55,065 bases of DNA, taken from NCBI GenBank assembly GCA_018240585.1, contig JAFEFM010000508.1:1-55065 (forward strand), written 5' to 3'. Below, piece by piece: positions 15,374-27,429 of the stretch; positions within the stretch are counted from its first letter, which is position 1; the number at the start of each line of letters is the position of its first letter. The position numbers and the translations under genes were made by a program. The notes beneath the pieces were generated by a model. It saw only the letters and a list, made by a program, of their open reading frames with translations, did no database searches and was not told where the DNA came from. This stretch comes from Pseudomonadota bacterium. Its GTDB lineage: Bacteria > Pseudomonadota > Gammaproteobacteria > Burkholderiales > Rhodocyclaceae.

Positions 15374-17524
15374 ATGAGCGCCTCCGAGACCCTGCCTGAT
15401 CCGCCGTTTTCCGCCAGCCACCGTGTCGGCGGGGGAGCCGACCCCGCGCCCTGGCTGGCGCGGCTCAACGCGGCGCAGCGCGAGGCGGTGGAACATGGCG
15501 CCGGTGCCGGAGTGGGCGAAGGGGCAGCCGGGCCGCTGCTGGTGATCGCCGGTGCGGGTTCGGGCAAGACCAGCACGCTCGCCCATCGCGTCGCCCGCCT
15601 GATCGCGGGCGGCGCCGATCCCGGCCGCATCCTGCTGCTGACCTTCTCGCGCCGCGCCGCCGATGAAATGGGGCGCCGCGTGCACCGCATCCTCGGCGAA
15701 CTCGCGGCGACGCAACCCTGGCTCGGCGGCGCGACGCTTGCCTGGTCGGGCACCTTCCACGGCGTGGGGGCACGGCTGCTGCGCGAGTACGCCGGCCGCA
15801 TCGGGCTGGATCCGGCGTTCACCATCCACGACCGCGAGGATGCCGCCGACCTGTTGAACCTGGTCCGGCACGAACAGGGCTTGTCGGCGAAGAGCAGGCG
15901 CTTCCCGCTGAAGGGCACCTGCCTGGCGATCTACTCCGCCGCGGTGAACAACCGCGCGCCCCTGGCCGAAGTGCTGCAGGCCTCGTTCCCGTGGTGCGCC
16001 GAGTGGGAGAGCGAGCTGAAGCAGTTGTTCCGCGCCTATGTCGAGGCCAAGCAGGCGCAGCAGGTGCTCGATTACGACGACCTGCTGCTCTACTGGGCGC
16101 AGATGATGGACGAGCCGGCGCTGGCGCAGGAAGTCGGCGAGATGTTCGAACACGTGCTGGTCGATGAATACCAGGACACCAACCACCTGCAGGCGTCCAT
16201 CCTGCTGGCGATGAAACCCGATGGCCGCGGCCTCACCGTGGTCGGTGACGATGCGCAGGCGATCTACGCCTTTCGCGGCGCCACGGTGCGCAACATCCTG
16301 GATTTTCCCGCTGCGTTCGCGCCGCCCGCGCGGGTGGTGACGCTGGAGCGCAACTACCGCTCGACCCAGCCCATCCTCGCCGCGGCCAATGCGGTGATCG
16401 GGCTTGCCGCCGAGCGCTACGCCAAGGACCTGTGGTCGGATCGCGAATCTTCCCGGCTCCCGCGGCTGGTGTCGGTGAAGGACGATGCCGACCAGGCCGC
16501 CTTCGTCGTCGAGCAGGCGCTGGCCCGCCGCGAGGACGGGCTGAAGCTCAGGCAGCAGGCGGTGCTGTTCCGCGCCTCCAGCCACAGCGCGCGGCTGGAG
16601 ATGGAGCTCACCCGGCGCAACATCCCCTTCGTGAAGTTCGGCGGGCTCAAGTTCCTCGAGGCGGCGCACGTCAAGGACGTGCTTGCGCTGCTGCGCTGGG
16701 CGGAGAACCCGCGTGACCGCATCGCAGGCTTCCGCGCTATCCAGTTGCTCGCCGGCATCGGGCCGAAGACCGCGGGCCGCGTGCTCGACAACGTCGGTAC
16801 CGCCCCCGACGGCTGTGCGCTGCTCGCCGAGCAGCCGGTGCCCGATGCCGCGCGCGAAGGCTGGGTGGTGTTCGCAGCGCTGGTCGATCGCCTGGCCGGC
16901 CGTGGCGAGGCCGGCGCCGCGCGCTGGCCGGCGGAGTTCGAACTCGCCTGTCGCTGGTACGAGGCGCAGATGCCGCGCCTGTACGAGGACGCCGCGGTGC
17001 GGCTGCTCGACATCCAGCAGCTCGCCCGCATCGCCGCCAGTTACCCGAGCCGGCAGCGCTTCCTCACCGAACTCACGCTGGACCCGCCCAGCGCGACCAG
17101 CGATGAAGCCGGCACCCCCCTGCTCGACGAGGACTACCTGATCCTGTCCACGATGCATTCGGCCAAGGGCCAGGAATGGAGCGCGGTGAGCGTGCTGAAC
17201 GTGGTCGATGGCTGCATCCCGTCCGACATCGCCACCCGCAATGCCGCCGAGATCGAGGAGGAGCGCCGTCTGTTGTACGTGGCGATGACGCGGGCGAAGG
17301 ACCACCTCGACCTCATCGCGCCGCAACGCTTCTACGTGACACAGCAGCAGGGCCTGGGCGACCGTCATGTGTACGCCGGACGCAGCCGCTTCATCCCCAA
17401 CCGGCTGCTCGGGCATTTCGAACAGGCGAGCTGGCCCCCGCCCCCGCCCGAACTGCGCGGCTCGCCCGCCTCCCGCCAGGCCGCGGTCGATCTCGCAGCG
17501 AAGATGCGGAACATGTGGTCCTGA
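15374..17524 (+). CDS. UvrD/Rep-family ATP-dependent DNA helicase
   Basis: 716 residues of superfamily 1A helicase. Motifs in order: IAGAGSGKTSTLAHR (Walker A), LLTFSRRAADEM, DEYQDTNHLQ (motif II), VGDDAQAIYAFRGA (III), LERNYRS (IV), LSTMHSAKGQEW (V) and LLYVAMTRAKDHL (VI). It unwinds DNA 3' to 5' in repair or replication restart. A LexA-like box at its promoter suggests SOS induction. It is not clearly UvrD itself (N-terminal extension, shorter C-terminus), so no symbol is given. It converges with the cytochrome operon across 25 bases. Confidence 0.94.
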   Translation: MSASETLPDPPFSASHRVGGGADPAPWLARLNAAQREAVEHGAGAGVGEGAAGPLLVIAGAGSGKTSTLAHRVARLIAGGADPGRILLLTFSRRAADEMGRRVHRILGELAATQPWLGGATLAWSGTFHGVGARLLREYAGRIGLDPAFTIHDREDAADLLNLVRHEQGLSAKSRRFPLKGTCLAIYSAAVNNRAPLAEVLQASFPWCAEWESELKQLFRAYVEAKQAQQVLDYDDLLLYWAQMMDEPALAQEVGEMFEHVLVDEYQDTNHLQASILLAMKPDGRGLTVVGDDAQAIYAFRGATVRNILDFPAAFAPPARVVTLERNYRSTQPILAAANAVIGLAAERYAKDLWSDRESSRLPRLVSVKDDADQAAFVVEQALARREDGLKLRQQAVLFRASSHSARLEMELTRRNIPFVKFGGLKFLEAAHVKDVLALLRWAENPRDRIAGFRAIQLLAGIGPKTAGRVLDNVGTAPDGCALLAEQPVPDAAREGWVVFAALVDRLAGRGEAGAARWPAEFELACRWYEAQMPRLYEDAAVRLLDIQQLARIAASYPSRQRFLTELTLDPPSATSDEAGTPLLDEDYLILSTMHSAKGQEWSAVSVLNVVDGCIPSDIATRNAAEIEEERRLLYVAMTRAKDHLDLIAPQRFYVTQQQGLGDRHVYAGRSRFIPNRLLGHFEQASWPPPPPELRGSPASRQAAVDLAAKMRNMWS

Positions 17525-17549: not shown

Positions 17550-19031
17550 TCACAGCGTCTTCAGGTACTCGAGCAACGCTTCCTTGTCGTCGGGCGGCAG
17601 ATCGGTGCCGAACGCATGTCCCTGGTTGCCGCCACCTTTCGCGCTCGTGTCGTGGCGGGTGCCGATGCGCTCTGCTTCCGCGCCGCTGGTGATGAAGCCC
17701 ACCTTGACCGGGTCGTACACGTCGTAGCCGCGCCAGAAGACGGTTGGGCGCCCTGACGGCGGTTCGAGCAGATCCCGCAGGGTGGGCACCGAGCCGTTGT
17801 GCAGGTATGGCGCGCGCAGCCAGATGCCGTCGAGGAAGGCGGCGACGTAGCCGGTGAGCGGCGCCTCGACCAGGCCGGGGCGCTCGATCCCCATGTCGCG
17901 CACGACCTTGTTCGCCTCGCGCGCGGCTTTCTCGTTCCAGGTGTCGATGCGATCGCGGCTGGTGCCGACCTCGGCCAGCGGCACGACGGTGCCGGTGCGC
18001 GCGGACGCGTGGCAGGCGGCGCAGGTGGCGTCGAACACCGCCTTGCCGCGCTCGGCCCGGGCTGCGTCGATCGGGAACGGATACTTCGGCGCGCGCTTGG
18101 CGCTGACGTAGTCCTGGATCCAGCGCACCTGGGCGAGGAATTCGTCGTTGTTCTTGGGCGGCGCGCCCAGCAGGCCGAGCGCGGAGTCGATGATCACCGA
18201 GTAGGGATCGTGGCTGTCGCCGGCGAAGTTCATGCGCATGCCCTGCTCGGGCTTGTACTTGCCCAGGTTCCAGATCGACGGCATGTCGGTGGGCCCCAGG
18301 CTGTCGTCCATCGGCCAGCGGATCATGAAGTACTTGGTCAGGTTCATCGCGTCGTCGCGGCCGCGGCCCCAGGGCGGGAAGTCGGCGCGGTACAGCCAGG
18401 CGAACTGCTGCTCGCGCTCGAGCAGGCGCTTCTTCGTGATCGGGATGATCACGAAGCGATACAGCAGCCGATCAACGAAGGACAGGTCGGTGACCAGCCG
18501 GATCTCCGCCATCAGGTTGTCGGCGTTGAAGCGCGGATCCCGGGCGCAATCGACGAGGAAGCGGAAGAAGGCCCACAGGTTGAGCGTGTGGTTCGGCCCG
18601 GTCGGCACGAACACCGGTGCCGCGTCGGGCGCGGTGCGGTAGCTGGCGACGTGGCAGGACGCGCAGTTGTTGGCGACGCGCGGAAAGCCCACCACCTTCT
18701 TCGAGAAACCGGCCGGCAGTTCCTGGCCTTCCTCCCACACCACGCCGAAGGACGCGTAGCCGCCCGGACCGGGCAGCAGGTCGGGAAACACGCGCGGCAG
18801 CACGTAGAAGATCCAGTAGGGAATCCCGGCGTCGCGCTCGGCGCCGATCGATCCGTACTTGAAGCGCATGTCCGGATCGTTCGTGATCCACTCCGGTTGC
18901 GGCTCCTCGCGGAAGAACTTGTACCAGGCGAAGGCGCCGCCAGCCGCGCCCAGCGCGAGCAGCAGCGCGAGGACAAGCAACAGACTGCGGCCGCGCTGGT
19001 GTGTGCCGACGGTGAGAGGGTTCCGTTTCAT
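17550..19031 (-). CDS. Membrane-anchored di-heme cytochrome c, RoxA/di-heme peroxidase-like (paralog 2)
   Basis: 493 residues from the ATG at 19031; the longer open frame upstream is a shadow. One N-terminal hydrophobic helix (about 16-36) anchors or exports it. Two c-heme motifs: NCASCH (about residue 126) and TCAACH (about 330). The RLRAPYLHNGS-type segment resembles that of MauG, bacterial di-heme peroxidase and rubber oxygenase RoxA, here LRAPYLHNGSVPTLRDLLEP. The end reads GHAFGTDLPPDDKEALLEYL. Family members oxidise small or hydrophobic substrates, or peroxide, in the periplasm. It resembles the gene just upstream along most of its length, so the two are paralogs. It is the last gene of a five-gene minus-strand unit. 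The substrate is unknown. Confidence 0.85.
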   Translation of the reverse strand: MKRNPLTVGTHQRGRSLLLVLALLLALGAAGGAFAWYKFFREEPQPEWITNDPDMRFKYGSIGAERDAGIPYWIFYVLPRVFPDLLPGPGGYASFGVVWEEGQELPAGFSKKVVGFPRVANNCASCHVASYRTAPDAAPVFVPTGPNHTLNLWAFFRFLVDCARDPRFNADNLMAEIRLVTDLSFVDRLLYRFVIIPITKKRLLEREQQFAWLYRADFPPWGRGRDDAMNLTKYFMIRWPMDDSLGPTDMPSIWNLGKYKPEQGMRMNFAGDSHDPYSVIIDSALGLLGAPPKNNDEFLAQVRWIQDYVSAKRAPKYPFPIDAARAERGKAVFDATCAACHASARTGTVVPLAEVGTSRDRIDTWNEKAAREANKVVRDMGIERPGLVEAPLTGYVAAFLDGIWLRAPYLHNGSVPTLRDLLEPPSGRPTVFWRGYDVYDPVKVGFITSGAEAERIGTRHDTSAKGGGNQGHAFGTDLPPDDKEALLEYLKTL

Positions 19032-19126
19032 GGCTTGTTTGCTCCCGGGATGGGGCCGGCGGAGTCGGTCGGGATGGGGCGCGGTCTCTCGCGGTCCGCG
19101 CGCCCCCCTGCGGCGAGGCTGCGCGG

Positions 19127-20713
19127 TCAGAAGGTTTTCAGGAATTCCACCAGCGCCTCCTTGTCGGCGTCCGGCAGATCGGTGCCGTAGGCGTGGCCTT
19201 CGTGTCCGGCATTGCCGTTGCCGGGCTTGGTGGTATCGAACACGCACAGGCCCGCGGCGGCGCTGCCATTCGCGGTGTCAGGCAGGGCCGACGCAAAGCC
19301 CACCCGCTCACGATCGTAGAGGTCGCTGCCGCGCGCGAACTTCGCCGGGCGCATCGACGACGGTTCGAGCAGGTCGCGCAGCGTGGGCACCGAGCCGTTG
19401 TGCAGGTAGGGCGCACGCAGCCAGATACCGTCGAGCGGCATGTTGGCGTAGCCCCAGGTCTTGCGGAAATGCTGGAAGCGGTACGGGTAGCCGGCGTACA
19501 GCGTGGCCTGGTTCACCGCCAGGTCGCGGGTGTAGGAGTCGAGCCGTGCGCGGTCGGTCCCGATCTCGGCGATCGGCGTCACGTGCCCGACCTTTGCGCC
19601 GCGGAAATCGCTGCCGCTGGCACCGTGACAGGCGGCGCAGTATTCGGCATACAAGGGCGCGCCGCGCGCCGCGCGCTCGCGGTCGATCGGGTAGGGGAAG
19701 GGCGGCGGGGTCGCATCCAGCAACCAGTCCTCGACGCGGCCGATCGCGGCGAGGTCGATGGTGGGCGGCGTGGTGCCGGTGCCGAACGCGGCACTCTTGT
19801 TGCGTTCCTCGGTGTGGGTGTTGTTGCCGTCCCAGTGCAGTTGCATGCGTTCGCCGTCGTCGCGCGTCATGCGCTTGCGCTGGTTCCAGATCGAGGGGAA
19901 GTCTGACGCGCCCAGCAGTTCCTGCTTCGGCAAGGCCTTCATCGGAAAGTTGAACAGCACCTTGGCAGAGTTGAAGGTGTCCACCCGCCCCGGCCCCCAT
20001 TCCGGCTGGTCGGCGACGAAGTCGAAGCGGCCGCGCAGCATCAGCAGGCGCTCGCGCATCAGCGCGATCGCCACCGGATACACCAGATAGCGGTCGATCG
20101 GGCTCAACTTGCCGGCGAGGCGGTCGATCTCGGGCACGATGAACTCGGGCGAGAACTTCGGTCCGGCGGCGCAGTTGAAGAAGAAGGTCTCGAAGGCGCG
20201 GATGTCGAAGCGGTGCGCCGGCATGCCCACGATGATGCGCGGGGCGGCATCCGGCGCGTCACGCACGGTGCTGGTGTGGCAGGCGGCGCAGTTCAGGAAC
20301 ACGCGGTCCAGACCAAGGTTGCGCCGCTTCGACACGCCGATCGGCAGGTCGCGGCCCTCTTCGTAGATCAGTCCGAGCGCGGCGTAGCCGGTCGCCGGGG
20401 GGGCGCCCGCCGCCGCCATTCCGGTGGCCGACGCGGCGCCAGCACGCGCGCCGGCCGGCAGATGTTCCGCGCAGACCTGCGGCAGCGCCTGCCAGATCCA
20501 GTATGGGAAGCCCGATTCGCGCTCGCCGCCGGTGGAGCCGTACTTGAAGTGCTGCACCGGATCCGTGTAGGTCACCGCTTCGTCGGGCAGGAAGCGCGCG
20601 ACCGCATACAGCGCCACCAGCAGGATGACGATCCATGGCAGCCAGACGATGAAGCGCCACAACAGGGCGGGTCGGCGGTGTGCGACTGGCGCGGGGCGGG
20701 TGGGCTCGGTCAT
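19127..20713 (-). CDS. Membrane-anchored di-heme cytochrome c, RoxA/di-heme peroxidase-like (paralog 1)
   Basis: 528 residues. A single hydrophobic helix at about 19-41 (WRFIVWLPWIVILLVALYAV) places the rest in the periplasm. Heme motifs NCAACH (about residue 144) and YCAACHGAS (about 362). It shares with its neighbour the KYGSTGGERESGFPYWIW opening, the IWLRAPYLHNGSVPTLRDLL segment and the GHAYGTDLPDADKEALVEFL end. A roughly 25-residue Ala/Gly-rich insert near residue 90 is absent from the paralog. It starts 21 bases after the preceding gene and ends 95 bases before the next. A RoxA-like oxygenase or peroxidase is the best family-level description; the reaction is not known. Confidence 0.85.
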   Translation of the reverse strand: MTEPTRPAPVAHRRPALLWRFIVWLPWIVILLVALYAVARFLPDEAVTYTDPVQHFKYGSTGGERESGFPYWIWQALPQVCAEHLPAGARAGAASATGMAAAGAPPATGYAALGLIYEEGRDLPIGVSKRRNLGLDRVFLNCAACHTSTVRDAPDAAPRIIVGMPAHRFDIRAFETFFFNCAAGPKFSPEFIVPEIDRLAGKLSPIDRYLVYPVAIALMRERLLMLRGRFDFVADQPEWGPGRVDTFNSAKVLFNFPMKALPKQELLGASDFPSIWNQRKRMTRDDGERMQLHWDGNNTHTEERNKSAAFGTGTTPPTIDLAAIGRVEDWLLDATPPPFPYPIDRERAARGAPLYAEYCAACHGASGSDFRGAKVGHVTPIAEIGTDRARLDSYTRDLAVNQATLYAGYPYRFQHFRKTWGYANMPLDGIWLRAPYLHNGSVPTLRDLLEPSSMRPAKFARGSDLYDRERVGFASALPDTANGSAAAGLCVFDTTKPGNGNAGHEGHAYGTDLPDADKEALVEFLKTF

Positions 20714-20734
20714 GGTCTTGCTCCTCGGCGCAGG

Positions 20735-22894
20735 TCAGTCGGTGCCCGCCAGGCAGGGGGCGAGCGTCGCATAGGGGCGGGCCAGCACGGCAGCGGGGGT
20801 GAGGGAACGCTGCGCCAGCAGCCCCTCGAGCCGGGCGGTCATCGCCGGCCGGTCGGCCGACTGCAGGAAGGCGGCTGCATGGGCGGCGGCCGGTGGCGGC
20901 ATCGGCGTCTTCAGACGCGTGGCGGGCTGGCGCGCGTTCATCGCCAGCCGGAACAGCATGCGTTCGGCGCAGCCTGCGATCTGCGCCCGCACCTGGTCGT
21001 CGCTGCCGCGCAGGAAGCCTGGCGGGAAAGCGGTCGTTGCGGCATGGCACTGGCCACACTGGCGTGCGAACGGCTGCAGGTCGGGTGGCCAGACCGTGTC
21101 ACGTACCGGCACCGGATCGGATAGCCGTGGCGTGGTGCGCGACGGGCGATCGGCTGGCGACTTCAGCGCGGCGGACGAGACCCCGAGGCCGGCAAGCAGT
21201 GGCGACAACACGGCCCAGCGGCGCAGCGGCATCGCGTCGAGGGCGTCGCTGGTGCCGGCGAGCGTGGCCTCGACAAGCCGATCGATCGCCGCGTCCAGCG
21301 GCGCCAGGTCGGCGACCAGTGTCACGTTCGCGAGCATGCGCGACGGTCCGGCGCTGCCGGATGCGGGAGGCCTCCTCACGTCGATCTGCCGGACGGCCTC
21401 GCCGCTGGCGGCGCGCACCCTGCGATCACCGCGGCGCGGCACGAGACGCATTGTCATCGGCGCGGCGCCTTGGGGCACCGAGATCGCATCGAGGGCGGTC
21501 GCGCCGATCGCATCGTTGTCGGGAAGGACCAGGCGATCCACCCCGCCGTCGGTCAATCTTCCATGGCGTGGCGCGAGGCGCGTCTGCAACCGGGCTCCCC
21601 CGGGGCCCTCGCAGTCGAGGTCGAACCTGCCTCCGTCCGCCATGCGCCCGATGCAGCTCAGGGCGACCTGGCGGATCTCCGCCGAGGCGCCGCGCTGCGC
21701 CGACAAGGCGTTCAGCCGCCGGTCGATGAGGGCGATGTCCGCACGTGAAAAGAACATCGACAGCGCACCGACGACGCGCACCGCATCCGCTGCGTCGCGG
21801 CCCGGCCAGGTTTCGAGCGGCGCGCGCAGCGCCAGCGGGTCGAAGGCCGCGGCAATGTCGGCGTAACGGCGCAACTCGTCGTCGCCGGGCGGCGGGCGGC
21901 CACCTTCGATGCCGGCGAAAGGCTGGCGGTTGGGCAGCGAGGGGTCGGGGATCGCCAGCCCGGTCGGCCAGCGCTGCTGCCAGTTCGCCAGCAGGGGTTC
22001 GAGCAGGGCCGACCGTCGGGCAAGCGCGGCGGCCGTCGCGCTGCGGCCGTCGGTGAGCCGGTGGCGCAACGCCTGGCGCAGCGCCTCGGCGCGGCAGTTC
22101 ACCGCCACCTCGCGGCTCGGCGTGGCGCAGCCTTCGCGCCACAGCCGCTGGGCCGTGCCGAGCAGGTTGGCGCGCGCGGTGGCGCCATCGATGGCGTCCG
22201 GCACGTCCACCCCATGGCGCCAGTCCAGGCCATAGTACGGCAGCCCGGTCGCGGCCAGCCGCGCCGCCACGGGTGCGCTGGCGCTCGTCTCGTCCCACGA
22301 CTGGCGCGAGAAGATCGGTGCGGCGTTCTGATGGCAGGCGAGGCACAGCGTGCGGCTGGCGTAGCCGACGTCGGGGGTGGCGCCCGCGCGATAGTTGCGC
22401 ACCAACTGGAACTCGAAGCGCCCGGCAGTCTCGTTGTAGCTGATCACTTCGAGCGCGGCGGCCTTCTCGTGATAGGCGACGTACAGGCGGTCGCGCAGGT
22501 AGGGATGTCCGGGCGCCGCGGTCGCCGCCGGTTCGCCGGTCACGGCGGCGACCACGCGCGGGTAGCGAAAGGCGTCGGCGTCGCCTGCGGCATGACGCTG
22601 AAGCGAGCGGCCGAGTGGAATCAGCACCACGGAAAGCCCTCCAGACGATTGACTGGCGTCGAGGTGACGCGAGATGCGCTGCAACAGCGCGGGAAACGGG
22701 AAGGGCAGCGGCGGTGCGCCTGCTGCACCGATCTCGAACAGTTCGTCGAACAGCGAGCGTCCAGCCGGGGGCAGGTCAGGGCCGGCAGGCTCGACGACGC
22801 TGGTGCTCGCCGCGCCCCAAGCGACCCCCGCCCCCGAGGGCGCCAGGGCCAGCGCCAGCGCCAGGCTTGCGCACAGCGATGTCGATCGCAACAT
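20735..22894 (-). CDS. Exported di-heme cytochrome c domain protein of unknown function
   Basis: 719 residues from the ATG at 22894. A signal peptide (LCASLALALALAPSGAG) is followed by a long region with YVAYHEKAAALEVISYNETA and then CLACHQNAAPIFSRQSWDET. A central part lacks motifs. A second heme motif, CGQCHAATTAFPPGFLRG, comes near residue 612. This layout, with a first CxxCH followed by xNxAPIF, recurs in uncharacterised proteobacterial proteins. It is not obviously homologous to the RoxA-like genes on either side. It lies 59 bases after the lipoprotein gene and 21 before the first short RoxA-like paralog. I do not assign a reaction; an electron-transfer partner or second enzyme is possible. 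Confidence 0.8.
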   Translation of the reverse strand: MLRSTSLCASLALALALAPSGAGVAWGAASTSVVEPAGPDLPPAGRSLFDELFEIGAAGAPPLPFPFPALLQRISRHLDASQSSGGLSVVLIPLGRSLQRHAAGDADAFRYPRVVAAVTGEPAATAAPGHPYLRDRLYVAYHEKAAALEVISYNETAGRFEFQLVRNYRAGATPDVGYASRTLCLACHQNAAPIFSRQSWDETSASAPVAARLAATGLPYYGLDWRHGVDVPDAIDGATARANLLGTAQRLWREGCATPSREVAVNCRAEALRQALRHRLTDGRSATAAALARRSALLEPLLANWQQRWPTGLAIPDPSLPNRQPFAGIEGGRPPPGDDELRRYADIAAAFDPLALRAPLETWPGRDAADAVRVVGALSMFFSRADIALIDRRLNALSAQRGASAEIRQVALSCIGRMADGGRFDLDCEGPGGARLQTRLAPRHGRLTDGGVDRLVLPDNDAIGATALDAISVPQGAAPMTMRLVPRRGDRRVRAASGEAVRQIDVRRPPASGSAGPSRMLANVTLVADLAPLDAAIDRLVEATLAGTSDALDAMPLRRWAVLSPLLAGLGVSSAALKSPADRPSRTTPRLSDPVPVRDTVWPPDLQPFARQCGQCHAATTAFPPGFLRGSDDQVRAQIAGCAERMLFRLAMNARQPATRLKTPMPPPAAAHAAAFLQSADRPAMTARLEGLLAQRSLTPAAVLARPYATLAPCLAGTD

Positions 22895-22953
22895 GTCCGC
22901 CCCCTGCGACGCGCGGCGGCGGCCGGACGTGCGACGAGGCACGGCCGGGCGCA

Positions 22954-23874
22954 CTACCCGGTTCTGGCCGGCCCCATGACCACCAGCCGCTGCTGGGTGC
23001 CGGCCCAGCAGTCCTGCTGCACCTTGCCCGTCTTCAGGAACTCGTCCTTCGCGCGTTCAGCGATCTCCTTGTTGTACAGCACGAAATTCACGATGAAGGC
23101 GCGGTCCATGTAGGCGCGGCCGAGATAGAAGCCGGGATACACCATGCGGATCTCGTCGCGGATCGCGAACCCGTCGCGGCCGGCCATGATGTCCGGCATG
23201 CGACGGTAGCCCGGCAGCTCGTCGGTGAAGGCGTAGTCGATGATGATCGACTCGCGCCGGCCGTCGAGCAGGCTTTGTCCGCAATACAGCTTGGCCGGGA
23301 ACAGCAGCCATTGCTCCTTGCCGTCCACGCGGGTCTTCTGCAAGGGATTGGCAGGGCTGTCCTCGACCAGGCCGAGCTTCTTCAAGGCATCGAGGTCTTC
23401 GATGCGGTTACGGAGCAGGCGCTGGTCGCGGTAGAAGACCTTGCCTTTCCACAGCGTCTCGCCGATCAGGTCGAGCTTGGCGCCGGCCACATTCACCAGC
23501 AGGCTCTTCAGGCCGCCGCCGGCGATCTCGGACAGGCGCAACTTGCCGCTGCCGCCGCGCGGGAAGAACAGGTCGCCCTCGAACGGCCCGTCCGGGATCG
23601 GGCCCGCGGTGAGTCGCGCGTAAATCTGGTCGACCTGTTCCTGATCGAGGAAGGACAGGTTCTTCGGCGTGATCTTGTAGAGGTCTGCCGTCGATAGTGG
23701 AAAGCGGTGCTCCACGTAGGCGAAGTCGGGCTTGCCAGCGTAGTTCTCGGTAAACGGAGCGAACGAGATCACCGGCGCCGCCTTGTCCTCGGCGCGCTCG
23801 AAGAAGCCGCAGCCGGCGAGCGCGAACGTGGTGAGCACACAGGCGGCGCGCGCGAGGGTCGGGATCGGTCTCAT
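22954..23874 (-). CDS. Predicted lipoprotein of the cytochrome operon
   Basis: 306 residues from the ATG at 23874. The N-terminus is a lipoprotein signal: TTFALAGCGFFERAED, with the lipobox LAGC at about residue 20. No heme motif and no domain I recognise. Repeated aromatic and charged stretches (AYVEHRFPLSTADLYKITP, EGDLFFPRGGSGKLRLSEIA, EIRMVYPGFYLGRAYMDRAF) suggest a beta-rich periplasmic fold. The residue after the lipobox Cys is Gly, so outer-membrane sorting is likely. It starts 17 bases after the large cytochrome gene, so it is translated with it. It may be a scaffold or substrate-binding partner of the cytochromes (inference from the operon only). Confidence 0.8.
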   Translation of the reverse strand: MRPIPTLARAACVLTTFALAGCGFFERAEDKAAPVISFAPFTENYAGKPDFAYVEHRFPLSTADLYKITPKNLSFLDQEQVDQIYARLTAGPIPDGPFEGDLFFPRGGSGKLRLSEIAGGGLKSLLVNVAGAKLDLIGETLWKGKVFYRDQRLLRNRIEDLDALKKLGLVEDSPANPLQKTRVDGKEQWLLFPAKLYCGQSLLDGRRESIIIDYAFTDELPGYRRMPDIMAGRDGFAIRDEIRMVYPGFYLGRAYMDRAFIVNFVLYNKEIAERAKDEFLKTGKVQQDCWAGTQQRLVVMGPARTG

Positions 23875-23891
23875 GGCATGTCCCCCTGCAA

Positions 23892-26495
23892 TCACAGCGT
23901 CGCGAGGAAGGCGATCAACGCCTTCTTGTCGCTCTCGGGCAGATCTTCGCCGAAGCGGTGGCCTTCGTTTTCCACCTCAGCCGTACAACTGCTGTAGATC
24001 TGCTTGATCAGGTAGGGCCGTGCCTTCAGCGCCTCGACCAGCGCATTCGGTTTGCCCACCAGCTCGCCTGCAATCGCCTGCAGATCCTGCAGCACCTTGG
24101 TACCGGTGTCGGCGCCGAAGCGTTCGGCGAGGTTGCCTTCCAGGGCCTTGGCGTCGGTCTTCGCCCGCACCAGGTCGACGATGAACTGCTTGTGCTGGAA
24201 ATTGCCGATGGTGCCGGCGGTCACACCGCGCCCGTCGATCTCGCTCGGGATGGTCAGCTCGAAGCCGAGCAGCCTTTCCTTGTCGGTGCCGTCCCACATC
24301 CGCGGGCCGATGCGCAGCGTGACGTCCTCGTTGAGCAGCGTGACCTTGGGGATGCGTTGTGCCGGGTTCAGCAGCTCCTCCATCGAAGCCTTGTACAGGC
24401 GGAAGCGGCCTTCCACGCTGGGGTCGTACTCGAAGCAGGCCGGCTGCTGGTCGGCCGGCAGCAGCTTGACGTTGCTGCCATCGACGTAGCGCGGCCGCTT
24501 GGCGTAGAAGTCGTTCGCGGCGTTCTTCGGTTTGCCGCACAGCTCGGGCCCGATCGCGTTGTTGTGCAGGAAGGGGGCGTGGGCCCACAGGTTGAGCAGC
24601 GAGATGTTGCGGTAGTAGCCGCGGCCGCCGTCGCCGGGTTCCTTCACGTTGGGGTCGGGCGGGCGGGCGCGCAGGGTCTCGGAGCCGTATTCCTGCCACA
24701 CATGGCCGGCCATGTGGTTGGAGTGCAGCGCGCGGCAGCGGTAGGTGCCGACCTCGGACACCGGCGTGGCGCGGTCGTTGCCCAGCCAGTCCTCGCGCAG
24801 GCCGGTGCCGAGATCGAGCTTGTGGAAGTCGAGCCCGGCGGTCTGGCCGGCGAGCGCCTCCGGCTGGCTCGAGTGGCAGCGGGCGCAGGTGCTGGCGAAG
24901 ACCTCGCTGCCGCGCGCCACCGCACCGGCGCCGAATTCCTTCTCGAGATCGGCGATCAGATCCTGTTCGGTGTAGGCCGCCGCCGGCATGGCCGCGCGCC
25001 GGCTGTTCTCGCGCGCGACGCGCAGGTCGGTGACGTGAGCCTCGGCCGACATGAAGAAGTCCAGGATGTTGACGAGCCGGTCCTCGATCGCCCGGAAGTG
25101 GGGGCAGTCGCGCCGGCACTGTCCGATGTCGAACGGCGTCTGGCCGAAGTTGCGCTGCTGCGGGTCGAGCTGGCGCAAATCGGTGAGATGGTTCACCCAG
25201 CACTGTTCCGAGCAGGAGCCGATGTTGAAATACACACGCTGGATCGCCTCGAGGACACCGATCGAGTCCTCTCCGCCTTTCAGGATGTGATGCACGGTCT
25301 CCTTCTGCTGCGACTTCTTCCAGCACTTGCCGTTACGCCCCGGTTCGCACCAGCAGCTCGTCTCGTCCTTGTCGTCGCCGCAACTGGCGACCTTGCGCCA
25401 CTTGATGACGTCCTCGTCGGCGAAGGTGGGGCGCTTGGCGATGTTGATCAGCGCGTTGATCGTGCCGGGGTTGTTCACCTGGTCGGTGGGGATGGCCGAG
25501 GTGTCGCTGGCGCCCGGACGCGCGTGCGCGAACATCTGCCATTCCAGCGTGTTGCTCGCCATGCCCGATACCATGATCTCGGAGATGCGGGAGTACTGGT
25601 TGCCGACCAGGCCCTTGATGTTTTCCCACTTCGGGTTTGCCGGGTCGGCCGGCGGATTCAGCGGATCGAAGCCGATGTGGCAGGAACCGCAGGAGGTGCC
25701 GATCAGGAAAGGCGGTTCGATTCCACCATCCTGCAGGTGCGAGCGTGGCGCCTCGCCGCCGCCGCCGGCCGCGGCGAGGGGCCGGTTGTAGCCTTCCCAC
25801 GAGCCGGCCCTGCCATTGAGCTTGATCCACGCCGCCTTGTCGAAGCGCGGGTTGGGGAACTTGCGGATCCCCAGCGCGCCGGTGGAGGTGCCGAAGCGCA
25901 GGTCGCACGCGGACTGGCGCTGGTCGCTGGTGGCGTGCGGATCACCTTCCTTCAGCGGCGCGTCGCGGAAGTCGCATGCCGGGTCGGGATAGCCGCTGCG
26001 GCCGACGTAGCCCAGCAGCTCCTCGTCGCCCGGGCACCAGTCGAGGCCATAGGTTTCGTCCGGGCTCTTGGCCGGGCAGTTCTTCGAGCCGGGCACGCAG
26101 CACGCCGGGTCGTTGATGATGCCCCAGGCGCGGAAGCGGTCGCCGCGCTGGTCGGCGCGCAACACACGGTACCAGTCGATGAGCACGCCGACGCGCTGCT
26201 GGAAGACGTAGGTATGGAAGCGTTCGTTGCCTGCGGTGGCCTTGAACCAGATCAGGCGACCGGCGCAGGCGGATTCGTCGAGCCCCTCGCGCGCGCACGC
26301 TTCGTAGTAGGGCGCGTCCTGCTCGTGGACGATCCTGGCGGGGGCCGGCGCAGCGGCGCCTGCGGTGGTTGTTCCGCCCGCAGCCGCATTCGCCGCGGTA
26401 GCCGTCTCTCCTCCGGGCGGCGTGGTGGCGGTGATCGGGATTGCCGCGACGAACACCGCGACGAGCAGCACGACGACGGCCAGCACACGCTTCAT
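23892..26495 (-). CDS. Large exported di-heme cytochrome c, RoxA-like C-terminal half, cysteine-rich
   Basis: 867 residues from the ATG at 26495, preceded by GGAGG at a good distance. The first 30 residues form a signal or anchor, followed by an Ala/Thr/Gly linker. Heme motifs are CGSCHIG (about residue 276) and CARCHSS (about 541). The C-terminal half follows the RoxA-like plan: VSEVGTYRCRALHSNH, then APFLHNNAIG where the paralogs have APYLHNGSV, and the ending GHRFGEDLPESDKKALIAFL. Extra cysteines occur as PACCVP, CWCEP, CSEQC and CRRDC, many more than in the other members, pointing to disulfides or another cofactor. First gene of the five-gene unit. Function unknown; the changed LHNNA segment may mean a different activity. 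Confidence 0.84.
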   Translation of the reverse strand: MKRVLAVVVLLVAVFVAAIPITATTPPGGETATAANAAAGGTTTAGAAAPAPARIVHEQDAPYYEACAREGLDESACAGRLIWFKATAGNERFHTYVFQQRVGVLIDWYRVLRADQRGDRFRAWGIINDPACCVPGSKNCPAKSPDETYGLDWCPGDEELLGYVGRSGYPDPACDFRDAPLKEGDPHATSDQRQSACDLRFGTSTGALGIRKFPNPRFDKAAWIKLNGRAGSWEGYNRPLAAAGGGGEAPRSHLQDGGIEPPFLIGTSCGSCHIGFDPLNPPADPANPKWENIKGLVGNQYSRISEIMVSGMASNTLEWQMFAHARPGASDTSAIPTDQVNNPGTINALINIAKRPTFADEDVIKWRKVASCGDDKDETSCWCEPGRNGKCWKKSQQKETVHHILKGGEDSIGVLEAIQRVYFNIGSCSEQCWVNHLTDLRQLDPQQRNFGQTPFDIGQCRRDCPHFRAIEDRLVNILDFFMSAEAHVTDLRVARENSRRAAMPAAAYTEQDLIADLEKEFGAGAVARGSEVFASTCARCHSSQPEALAGQTAGLDFHKLDLGTGLREDWLGNDRATPVSEVGTYRCRALHSNHMAGHVWQEYGSETLRARPPDPNVKEPGDGGRGYYRNISLLNLWAHAPFLHNNAIGPELCGKPKNAANDFYAKRPRYVDGSNVKLLPADQQPACFEYDPSVEGRFRLYKASMEELLNPAQRIPKVTLLNEDVTLRIGPRMWDGTDKERLLGFELTIPSEIDGRGVTAGTIGNFQHKQFIVDLVRAKTDAKALEGNLAERFGADTGTKVLQDLQAIAGELVGKPNALVEALKARPYLIKQIYSSCTAEVENEGHRFGEDLPESDKKALIAFLATL

Positions 26496-26862: not shown

Positions 26863-27429
26863 TCAGGCGGCGGCGTCCTTCTTGGCAGCGGCCTTCTTCG
26901 CGGCGGGCGCCGGCACGGCAGCCTTTTGCGCGGCGTTCAGGTTGGCTTCCAGCGCCTCGGTGGCCTGCTTCACCAGCTTGGTGAATTCGGCGTACGCGTC
27001 GTTGGCGGCAGCGATGGCCTGCTTCATGCCGGCGAACAGCGGCTCCGAACCCTTCGGCGCCGACTTCTCGGCCTGCTCGATGGCCTGGGTGACAGCCTTG
27101 TTCACATCGGCGATGTTCGCCTCGACCAGCTTGGTCAGCTCCTGCTGGCCTTCGGTGGCGATTTCATACACGCTGCGGCTGTAATCGACGAACTTGTCGA
27201 CCACCGGCTGGGCCAGCTCCTGCTGCAGCTTGGCGAGGTCCTGCGGCTGCTTGACCTCGAGCAGGGTCTTGGCGCTGGCGGCGCTGTCTTCCAGCACGGC
27301 GCGGACGATGTTCATGTTCAGCGCGGCAAGGCGCTCGGCACGGCTCTGCACGCCGGCGATCATCTTCTGCACCGCTTCCATGTTGGCCTTGTTGGCGGCG
27401 GCGAAAGCTTCGGGGGTGAAGTAGTTCAT
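26863..27429 (-). CDS. phaP: Phasin (PHA granule-associated protein)
   Basis: 188 residues, the length of PhaP1-type phasins. The start MNYFTPEAFAAANKANMEA is characteristic. The body is almost entirely amphipathic helix (KTLLEVKQPQDLAKLQQELA, YEIATEGQQELTKL), and the tail is Ala/Lys-rich (AAKKAAAKKDAAA). Phasins coat polyhydroxyalkanoate granules and set their number and size. An AGGAG ribosome site stands 7 bases before the ATG, and a consensus-like promoter lies upstream. A PHB depolymerase at the right end of the window supports PHA metabolism in this organism. Confidence 0.93.
   Translation of the reverse strand: MNYFTPEAFAAANKANMEAVQKMIAGVQSRAERLAALNMNIVRAVLEDSAASAKTLLEVKQPQDLAKLQQELAQPVVDKFVDYSRSVYEIATEGQQELTKLVEANIADVNKAVTQAIEQAEKSAPKGSEPLFAGMKQAIAAANDAYAEFTKLVKQATEALEANLNAAQKAAVPAPAAKKAAAKKDAAA

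Follow-up and report, generated by a model that had tools for sequence, protein, structure and literature searches.

A conserved five-gene set of exported di-heme proteins and a lipoprotein, possibly acting on acyl lipids

A stretch of 55 065 nucleotides from a Rhodocyclaceae bacterium (GenBank assembly GCA_018240585.1, contig JAFEFM010000508.1), hereafter called the window, was analysed for five consecutive minus-strand genes at positions 17550-26495. The genes were named E, D, C, B and A, E being the first, and their presence as a set was confirmed. Our preferred reading, held tentatively, is that they encode a periplasmic, membrane-tethered system that may oxygenate or peroxidise acyl lipids, whether unsaturated fatty acids or the chains of membrane lipids. 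It was adopted because of the scaffold of A and B, the barrel modelled for D and the lipid enzymes found repeatedly beside the set or its relatives. An earlier prediction made from the sequence of the window (the original prediction) had described a periplasmic complex of cytochromes, three of them RoxA-like, oxidising a perhaps hydrophobic substrate; this interpretation was partly supported.

Layout and conservation of the five genes

The genes lie 17, 59, 21 and 95 bp apart in the order E-D-C-B-A, both the gaps and the gene coordinates (Table 1) resting on likely ATG starts. An N-terminal hydrophobic segment was predicted in all five proteins and the lipobox Cys of D (codon 23809-23811) was invariant in two alignments of D proteins (14 of 14 and 32 of 32), in agreement with the export or anchor signals announced for every gene. 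A, B, C and E each carry two CxxCH motifs, eight in total as predicted (0.016 expected from the proteins' own composition), and D carries none. The C-terminal motif GH..(F/Y)G..L...K was found in A, B and E, the version of B having the insert GHEGHAYG. A and B have the exact APYLHN segment and E has the variant APFLHN, whose His is lost in the Rhizobium relatives. The ending and the segment that had been said to be common to three proteins are shared by A and B, and by E in a looser form.

A profile of E was scanned against named genomes and gave at least 497 encoding stretches, of which the best 80 were taken as the locus sample; being ranked by similarity to E, this sample is biased. Flanking genes in the fetched loci were called by codon usage. 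The aligned homologue sets exclude truncated and frame-broken genes, genes containing X and genes below 85% of the query length, and the alignments of the set proteins consist of chosen non-redundant rows. The conservation of order that had been put forward as a check was found: all five genes were present in the order E-D-C-B-A on one strand in 60 of the 80 loci. In 18 loci the contig stops no more than 2.5 kb beyond the last gene that was found, and two (L093 and L118) run on for 5.7-6.5 kb without B and A. All five genes were also present in 14 of 20 loci from a search of relatives (one A was cut by a contig end).

The hosts included Thauera, Azoarcus, Zoogloea, Accumulibacter, Thiobacillus, uncultured Steroidobacter and isolates of Pseudomonas fluorescens and Azotobacter. 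Flanking genes vary between genera while the five-gene set stays, and its fixed order across these genera is best read as that of one functional set. E was 58-95% identical across the fetched relative loci (90% to Thauera sp. UWPOB_THAU1, 81% to Thauera aminoaromatica S2). The P. fluorescens and Azotobacter copies (about 80% identity) suggest horizontal transfer. D was found in 11 of 29 genomes of the same genus, the window's own included, and in 19 of 399 genomes of an order sample; in a class sample it was strong in 2 of 369 genomes, two more matches being weak. E-type genes were wider spread than D, with an expect value (E) below 1e-50 in 11 of 369 genomes of the class sample and 5 of 398 of a phylum sample, the window's own genome being counted in both.

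A and B belong to a named, functionally unassigned family. No description of the five-gene module was found; searches of the open-licence literature showed neither the module nor the families of E, C and D nor the pattern of neighbours, and such absence is weak evidence.

A and B among the RoxA-like di-heme proteins

Both A and B passed the Pfam model PF21419 (RoxA-like_Cyt-c; 62.2 and 60.1 bits, respectively, cut-off 26.7). The model NF040606 ('di-heme-cytochrome C peroxidase', cut-off 150) was passed by B (174 bits) and narrowly missed by A (147-147.9 bits, under by 2-3), and was matched at E ≤ 1e-5 by all 25 proteins of the A alignment. Both names are sequence labels, and C, D and E stand outside them. 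E scored 12.9 bits at PF21419 and 27.5 bits at NF040606, C and D being listed for neither, and a Pfam cut-off was reached by none of C, D and E. Of the three proteins called RoxA-like in the original prediction, A and B were upheld by Pfam, and E was rejected as the third.

MauG/CcpA-type, MbnH and DHOR enzymes have a di-heme architecture and a MauG-type motif, both of which they share with the set proteins. No CCP_MauG or DHOR Pfam match was obtained at E ≤ 1 with A, B, C or E, and the MbnH model gave 11.7-14.1 bits with A and B (cut-off 362.85). The best solved structure by profile was RoxA (4b2n), for B (E 2.2e-20) as for A (E 1.3e-14). RoxA was also the only Foldseek match at E ≤ 0.001 of the B model (mean predicted local distance difference test score, pLDDT, 84.8). 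Like RoxA, RoxB and RoxC, A and B have two c-hemes, a PYLHNGSVP-type (MauG) motif and a His at the H641 position. They differ from RoxA in being shorter, in their N-terminal membrane segment and in being paired inside a five-gene set.

For the heme-pocket alignment and the tree, the A and B rows were taken from nine chosen loci of the 80 and from the window. In a maximum-likelihood tree of 31 proteins, A and B formed two supported groups (98/99 and 100/98), and the Rox and Pseudomonas-type proteins stood apart from them on long branches. The joining of the long branches and of the Rhizobium and Qingshengfaniella B-type proteins was without resolution in this tree. On sequence, A and B are members of a wider RoxA-like group, in which they form two clades apart from the rubber oxygenases and the Pseudomonas pair.

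In RoxA, F301 and F317 form a hydrophobic distal pocket (excerpts of PMC4496055 and PMC6797691), and the bridging W302, H195 and H641 are given in the excerpts of PMC4496055. The H641 position and both CxxCH His were kept in all A and B rows, and the second-heme ligands of RoxA are shared by A and B. The F301 position was His in 10 of 10 B rows and in the Rhizobium, Sinorhizobium and Qingshengfaniella relatives, Asn in 10 of 10 A rows and Gln in the P. aeruginosa pair (see below). At the W302 position Trp was found in all B rows (10/10) and in 4 of 10 A rows, two of them near-identical, the residues present in A being F, Y, W or L. The F317 position was Phe in B (10/10) and Leu in A (10/10). 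H293, W294 and E303-R304-N305 of B were kept in 22 of 22 rows. The residues of B at the RoxA pocket positions make its pocket more polar than that of RoxA, and H293, at the F301 position, may serve in acid-base catalysis or bind the heme as its sixth ligand. As invariant candidates near heme 1, A has H148 and M229, B has H55 and H293, and E has H436.

A RoxA-like distal pocket as such was unsupported, because F301 and F317 are replaced in A/B (His in B and Asn in A at F301, Leu in A at F317). Oxidative cleavage of isoprenoid or terpene double bonds as by RoxA, towards which the original prediction leaned, was judged improbable, as one of the two least likely readings. It agrees with the RoxA matches of the B model and of the A and B profiles, and with the Trp and Phe that B keeps at the W302 and F317 positions. 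It is opposed by the pocket replacements, by the scores of A and B with the RoxA, RoxB and RoxC NCBIfam models (47-75 bits, cut-offs 900-1000) and by the separate long branch of Rox. A and B were rejected as Rox orthologues on the tree and on full-length homology. The genome of Povalibacter uvarum encodes both a protein with 1258 bits to RoxA 4b2n (L176) and the five-gene set (L122); a RoxA-type protein and the set are therefore separate genes there, which also speaks against RoxA-like cleavage.

Periplasmic peroxide removal was considered as another reading. A and B would then be ordinary di-heme cytochrome c peroxidases, C and E electron donors and D structural, as the family name of NF040606 (B above and A just below the cut-off) would have it. 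The His of B at F301 and its E303-R304-N305 suit acid-base peroxide chemistry better than the hydrophobic pocket of RoxA does, and a gene that we take to encode a thiol peroxidase (Tpx) follows A in 6 of the 51 loci with downstream sequence. However, the name NF040606 is a label without tested function, and four di-heme proteins with a barrel lipoprotein exceed the needs of a simple peroxidase. The Tpx-like gene was rejected as a general feature, being found only in loci of Zoogloea (three) and of Proteobacteria metagenome-assembled genomes (MAGs; three), and the lipase and phospholipase neighbours would be left unexplained. Peroxide removal was considered unlikely.

The acyl-lipid reading was compared with the FadCcp proteins of Pseudomonas aeruginosa. 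According to the excerpts of PMC4496055, PA2077 is an oleate 10S-dioxygenase and PA2078 a 7,10-diol synthase. In locus L171 a gene of 624 codons adjoins one of 634; their heme His lie at 130/365 and 130/375, respectively, and their MauG-motif His at 544 and 553. The pair was identified as PA2078/PA2077 by the lengths and heme positions tabulated in these excerpts, the motif and C-terminal His agreeing within one residue. Like A and B, PA2077 and PA2078 are tandem di-heme paralogues. One of the Pseudomonas pair lacks the inter-heme Trp, and A/B, with the Trp in every B row but often missing from A, resembles it to that extent. The C-terminal 106-128 residues of the Pseudomonas pair are 40-47% identical to A/B, with short fragments elsewhere. 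Unlike A and B, they have Gln at the F301 position and form a separate clade; full-length homology is lacking, and only two di-heme genes were present within the 10 kb fetched, against four in the five-gene set. As far as the alignments tell, the two pairs share a scaffold and not a subfamily.

The lipoprotein D, the proteins C and E, and other arrangements

D had been described as a lipoprotein without a recognisable domain, and indeed has no Pfam family and no meaningful sequence match to a solved PDB chain. Its model (mean pLDDT 83.7) gave a single match at E ≤ 0.001, 4mve_A (E 1.5e-4, probability 1.00, TM-score 0.31/0.59, root-mean-square deviation (rmsd) 7.1). Weaker matches (E about 0.05-0.3, probability <0.5) were to FABP/CRABP (retinoid- and fatty-acid-type) and lipocalin barrels. 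The FABP, lipocalin and 4mve folds are presumably all calycin-type, and the model is suggestive of a calycin-like barrel lipoprotein. A membership of D in DUF4334/GXWXG (PF14232) was our own guess, and a PF14232 member for comparison was given by 0 of 61 genomes and by no control. The small D-like protein encoded next to the GMC gene of L257 (28% identity to D, E 4e-17) was without a meaningful sequence match to a solved chain. The hydrophobic substrate that had been proposed is favoured by the barrel model and by the lipase, phospholipase, GMC and OYE genes that some relatives have as neighbours.

The E profile matched RoxA at the tail only (E 0.015). In this match the invariant H846 of E falls on the RoxA H641 position; H436 is invariant as well. 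C has the motifs GRSLQR and KTPMPP, with no invariant His outside CxxCH and invariant M652 and M665 only. It had been assigned to a different di-heme family. The two hemes stand, but C reaches no family cut-off, and it was rejected as a member of a known di-heme family after 24 relatives had been scanned with only weak generic heme-motif or chance matches.

On Rhizobium and Sinorhizobium plasmids the gene order was OYE, B homologue, small membrane protein, A homologue, E homologue and GMC, and the Rhizobium cluster (e.g. pRL11 of R. johnstonii 3841) additionally has a patatin. The B, A and E homologues were 45%, 41% and 26% identical to those of the window. D had no match in the plasmid collection, and no C-like gene was evident in the plasmid regions shown, where no search with C itself was made; flavoenzymes and, in Rhizobium, a phospholipase are present instead. 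E homologues also adjoin GMC-type genes in L248, L251, L252, L256 and L257, two of the five with a patatin-like gene; GMC identity rests on Pfam in L257 and Rhizobium and on similarity to these elsewhere.

A second E homologue was found in the window's own genome (G000:C434, L247 914-3514). It is 47% identical to the Rhizobium E and adjoins a partial GMC-like gene at the contig end. In L253, L254, L255 and L258 (same class) a C homologue comes after an E homologue, A, B and D giving no match there, and a one-heme protein of 253-274 aa is present in three of the four. The Qingshengfaniella B homologue has an animal-type heme peroxidase nearby and an adjoining alpha/beta hydrolase. From these varied arrangements, E is the shared part, and C, D, A/B, GMC and patatin join it in different combinations.

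The GMC neighbours bear on a reading of the set as an electron conduit or dehydrogenase partner. E (with C) would accept electrons from a flavoenzyme such as GMC, A and B would be sinks and the substrate would be an alcohol or aldehyde. The GMC genes beside E homologues at the five loci, on the plasmids and at the second site of the window's own genome fit this reading, and the invariant M652 and M665 of C could ligate heme. It was nevertheless considered quite unlikely: no GMC or other dehydrogenase is present in the window's cluster, and the ligand pattern of A/B is that of RoxA-type enzymes with a catalytic heme.

Neighbouring genes and proposed function

Neighbours were surveyed at 97 loci (the 80 best and 17 others), with 861 genes outside A-E, of which 168 were within cluster reach; genes overlapping A-E were omitted. 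Regular expressions that we take to represent TIR, caspase and patatin motifs were used as well as profiles. Patatin-type matches were in operon reach in 13 of 15 cases, at 12 loci (one-sided Fisher p 2.9e-8), and TIR matches in 8 of 10, at 8 loci of the 97 (one-sided Fisher p 5.7e-5); these p-values ignore shared ancestry, and some patatin matches are fragments. The patatin and TIR profiles were built from matches already seen (six for TIR). Among the matches unused in profile building, 9 of 11 for patatin and 2 of 4 for TIR were in reach. In L287 a lipase_3 gene lies between C and B.

The TIR proteins are encoded beside or inside the set, and a membrane segment was predicted in seven of the eight. 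Their architectures are TIR-transmembrane-LCCL, TIR-CHASE2, TIR with a Sad1/UNC-like part, and N-terminal domain-transmembrane-TIR. In L080 (Aromatoleum tolulyticum) the TIR-LCCL gene comes after A. In three genomes a homologous gene of 218-270 aa (45-57% identity; Table 1) lies between A and the TIR gene, its L035 copy having no Pfam family. The stretch 19172-22468 of L120, after A, contains a 209-aa gene without family, one with a caspase domain and one of DUF7379.

A module for signalling and cell death linked to stress or phage, in which the hemes would oxidise membrane lipid and linked TIR, caspase and patatin proteins would respond, finds some agreement in these genes (TIR with varied second domains at 8 of 97 loci, mostly with a membrane segment, and the caspase-domain gene of L120). 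It shares the lowest rank with isoprenoid cleavage, as the other loci, window included, had no TIR match in reach, and the TIR profile came from six matches, with two of the four unused ones in reach. Moreover, no PADLOC defence model matched A-E at E ≤ 0.001, the only PADLOC matches coming from other genomes, with one TIR and one caspase neighbour, and a defence-system label for the core genes was rejected. A related proposal, very unlikely though slightly above the preceding one, is that E-D-C-B-A is a periplasmic lipid-oxidation engine feeding signalling or self-destruction enzymes. Oxidised membrane lipid would be sensed by exchangeable partners (membrane TIR proteins, caspase-like proteases, patatins and lipases), and the TIR proteins would carry a second domain across the membrane.

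Further neighbours were recorded. In L040 the gene immediately upstream of E, on E's strand, is a DHOR (PF06537) di-heme gene (230-1672). A 614-aa gene, presumably alpha-amylase-like, lies between D and C in L089, L097, L113, L118 and L123, and a shorter piece of it is found at this place in L045. Beta-propeller and FecR-domain genes lie between E and D in L041 (6933-9291), L045 (10832-12118) and L089 (12633-14901), Pfam having been run on L041 only. The third gene after C in L045 resembles DyP peroxidases, below Pfam cut-offs. An upstream gene assumed to be LysR-type (12 of 74 loci) was rejected as a general feature, being confined to Zoogloea, Zoogloeaceae or Proteobacteria MAG loci. In the window the set is bounded by genes that we take to encode a phasin and a UvrD helicase (Table 1); genes upstream of E in other genera differ from the phasin-like gene. 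Other flanking genes presumably encode ZnuA and YceI.

Table 1. Coordinates of the genes, motifs and residues of the set and of selected neighbours
Feature	Locus	Coordinates	Strand	Description
Gene E	Window	23892..26495	-	867-aa exported di-heme cytochrome, first gene of set
Gene D	Window	22954..23874	-	306-aa lipoprotein, predicted calycin-like barrel
Gene C	Window	20735..22894	-	719-aa exported protein, two CxxCH, without named family
Gene B	Window	19127..20713	-	528-aa membrane-anchored di-heme protein, nearest solved fold RoxA
Gene A	Window	17550..19031	-	493-aa membrane-anchored di-heme paralogue of B (39%)
Phasin-like gene	Window	26863..27429	-	367 bp upstream of E; set boundary, non-member
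UvrD-like helicase gene	Window	15374..17524	+	Convergent with A; set boundary, non-member
CASCH123	Window	18651-18665		CxxCH of A
CAACH337	Window	18009-18023		CxxCH of A
CAACH142	Window	20276-20290		CxxCH of B
CAACH359	Window	19625-19639		CxxCH of B
CLACH184	Window	22331-22345		CxxCH of C
CGQCH613	Window	21044-21058		CxxCH of C
CGSCH269	Window	25677-25691		CxxCH of E
CARCH537	Window	24873-24887		CxxCH of E
H293-W294, F310	Window			B residues at RoxA F301-W302, F317 positions
N268-F269, L285	Window			A residues at RoxA F301-W302, F317 positions
TIR gene	L080	18390-20003
TIR gene	L081	18660-19934
TIR gene	L083	18394-20130
TIR gene	L085	10656-12269
TIR gene	L082	4723-5889
TIR gene	L035	16923-18515
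TIR gene	L046	2289-3809
TIR gene	L060	19608-21116
218-270 aa gene	L035	16139-16906
218-270 aa gene	L046	3823-4632
218-270 aa gene	L060	18901-19554

Several results weigh against the acyl-lipid reading. A and B were rejected as orthologues of PA2077/PA2078, the homology being partial and the branches separate, and the Rhizobium and Sinorhizobium A-type proteins keep the Trp at the W302 position, so that Trp loss is not general. The match of the B model to RoxA (E 3.7e-9, TM-score 0.47/0.39, rmsd 10.5) is moderate, and the fold of D consists of one strong and several weak matches not borne out by sequence. No patatin match was in reach at 85 of the 97 loci, 6 of the 12 patatin loci were Thiobacillus or Hydrogenophilales, the upstream patatin of L097 scored 26.7 bits, just under the Pfam cut-off of 27.7, and no lipid enzyme lies within the window's own operon. 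GMC and OYE enzymes, moreover, act on many non-lipid substrates.

Under the acyl-lipid reading we infer that a complex forms, what its substrate is, in which direction the chemistry runs and what A, C and E do, as follows. D would bind or deliver the hydrophobic substrate. B would be the main di-heme enzyme that activates oxygen or peroxide; H293 and F310 would lie above its N-terminal heme and W294 between its two hemes, of which the second would be bis-His. A, as a divergent paralogue of B, would act on an intermediate, as PA2078 does on the hydroperoxide of PA2077. Electron transfer and the scaffold would fall to C and E, of which E also occurs in other clusters.

If this reading is true, four di-heme proteins and a lipoprotein that binds lipid, encoded as a widespread set, would provide a second bacterial route to periplasmic oxidised lipids, besides the oleate diol-synthase pair of Pseudomonas, and proteins labelled only 'cytochrome c peroxidase' would be given a testable function. 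Among the hosts, Thauera, Zoogloea and Accumulibacter are known members of wastewater and aromatic-degrading communities. With the TIR, caspase and phospholipase genes that adjoin the set in some genomes, it can be tested directly whether redox chemistry in the periplasm is linked to stress or death signalling in bacteria. The lipid-oxidation engine, if true, would be a bacterial counterpart of the cytochrome-c-driven lipid peroxidation of eukaryotic cell death.

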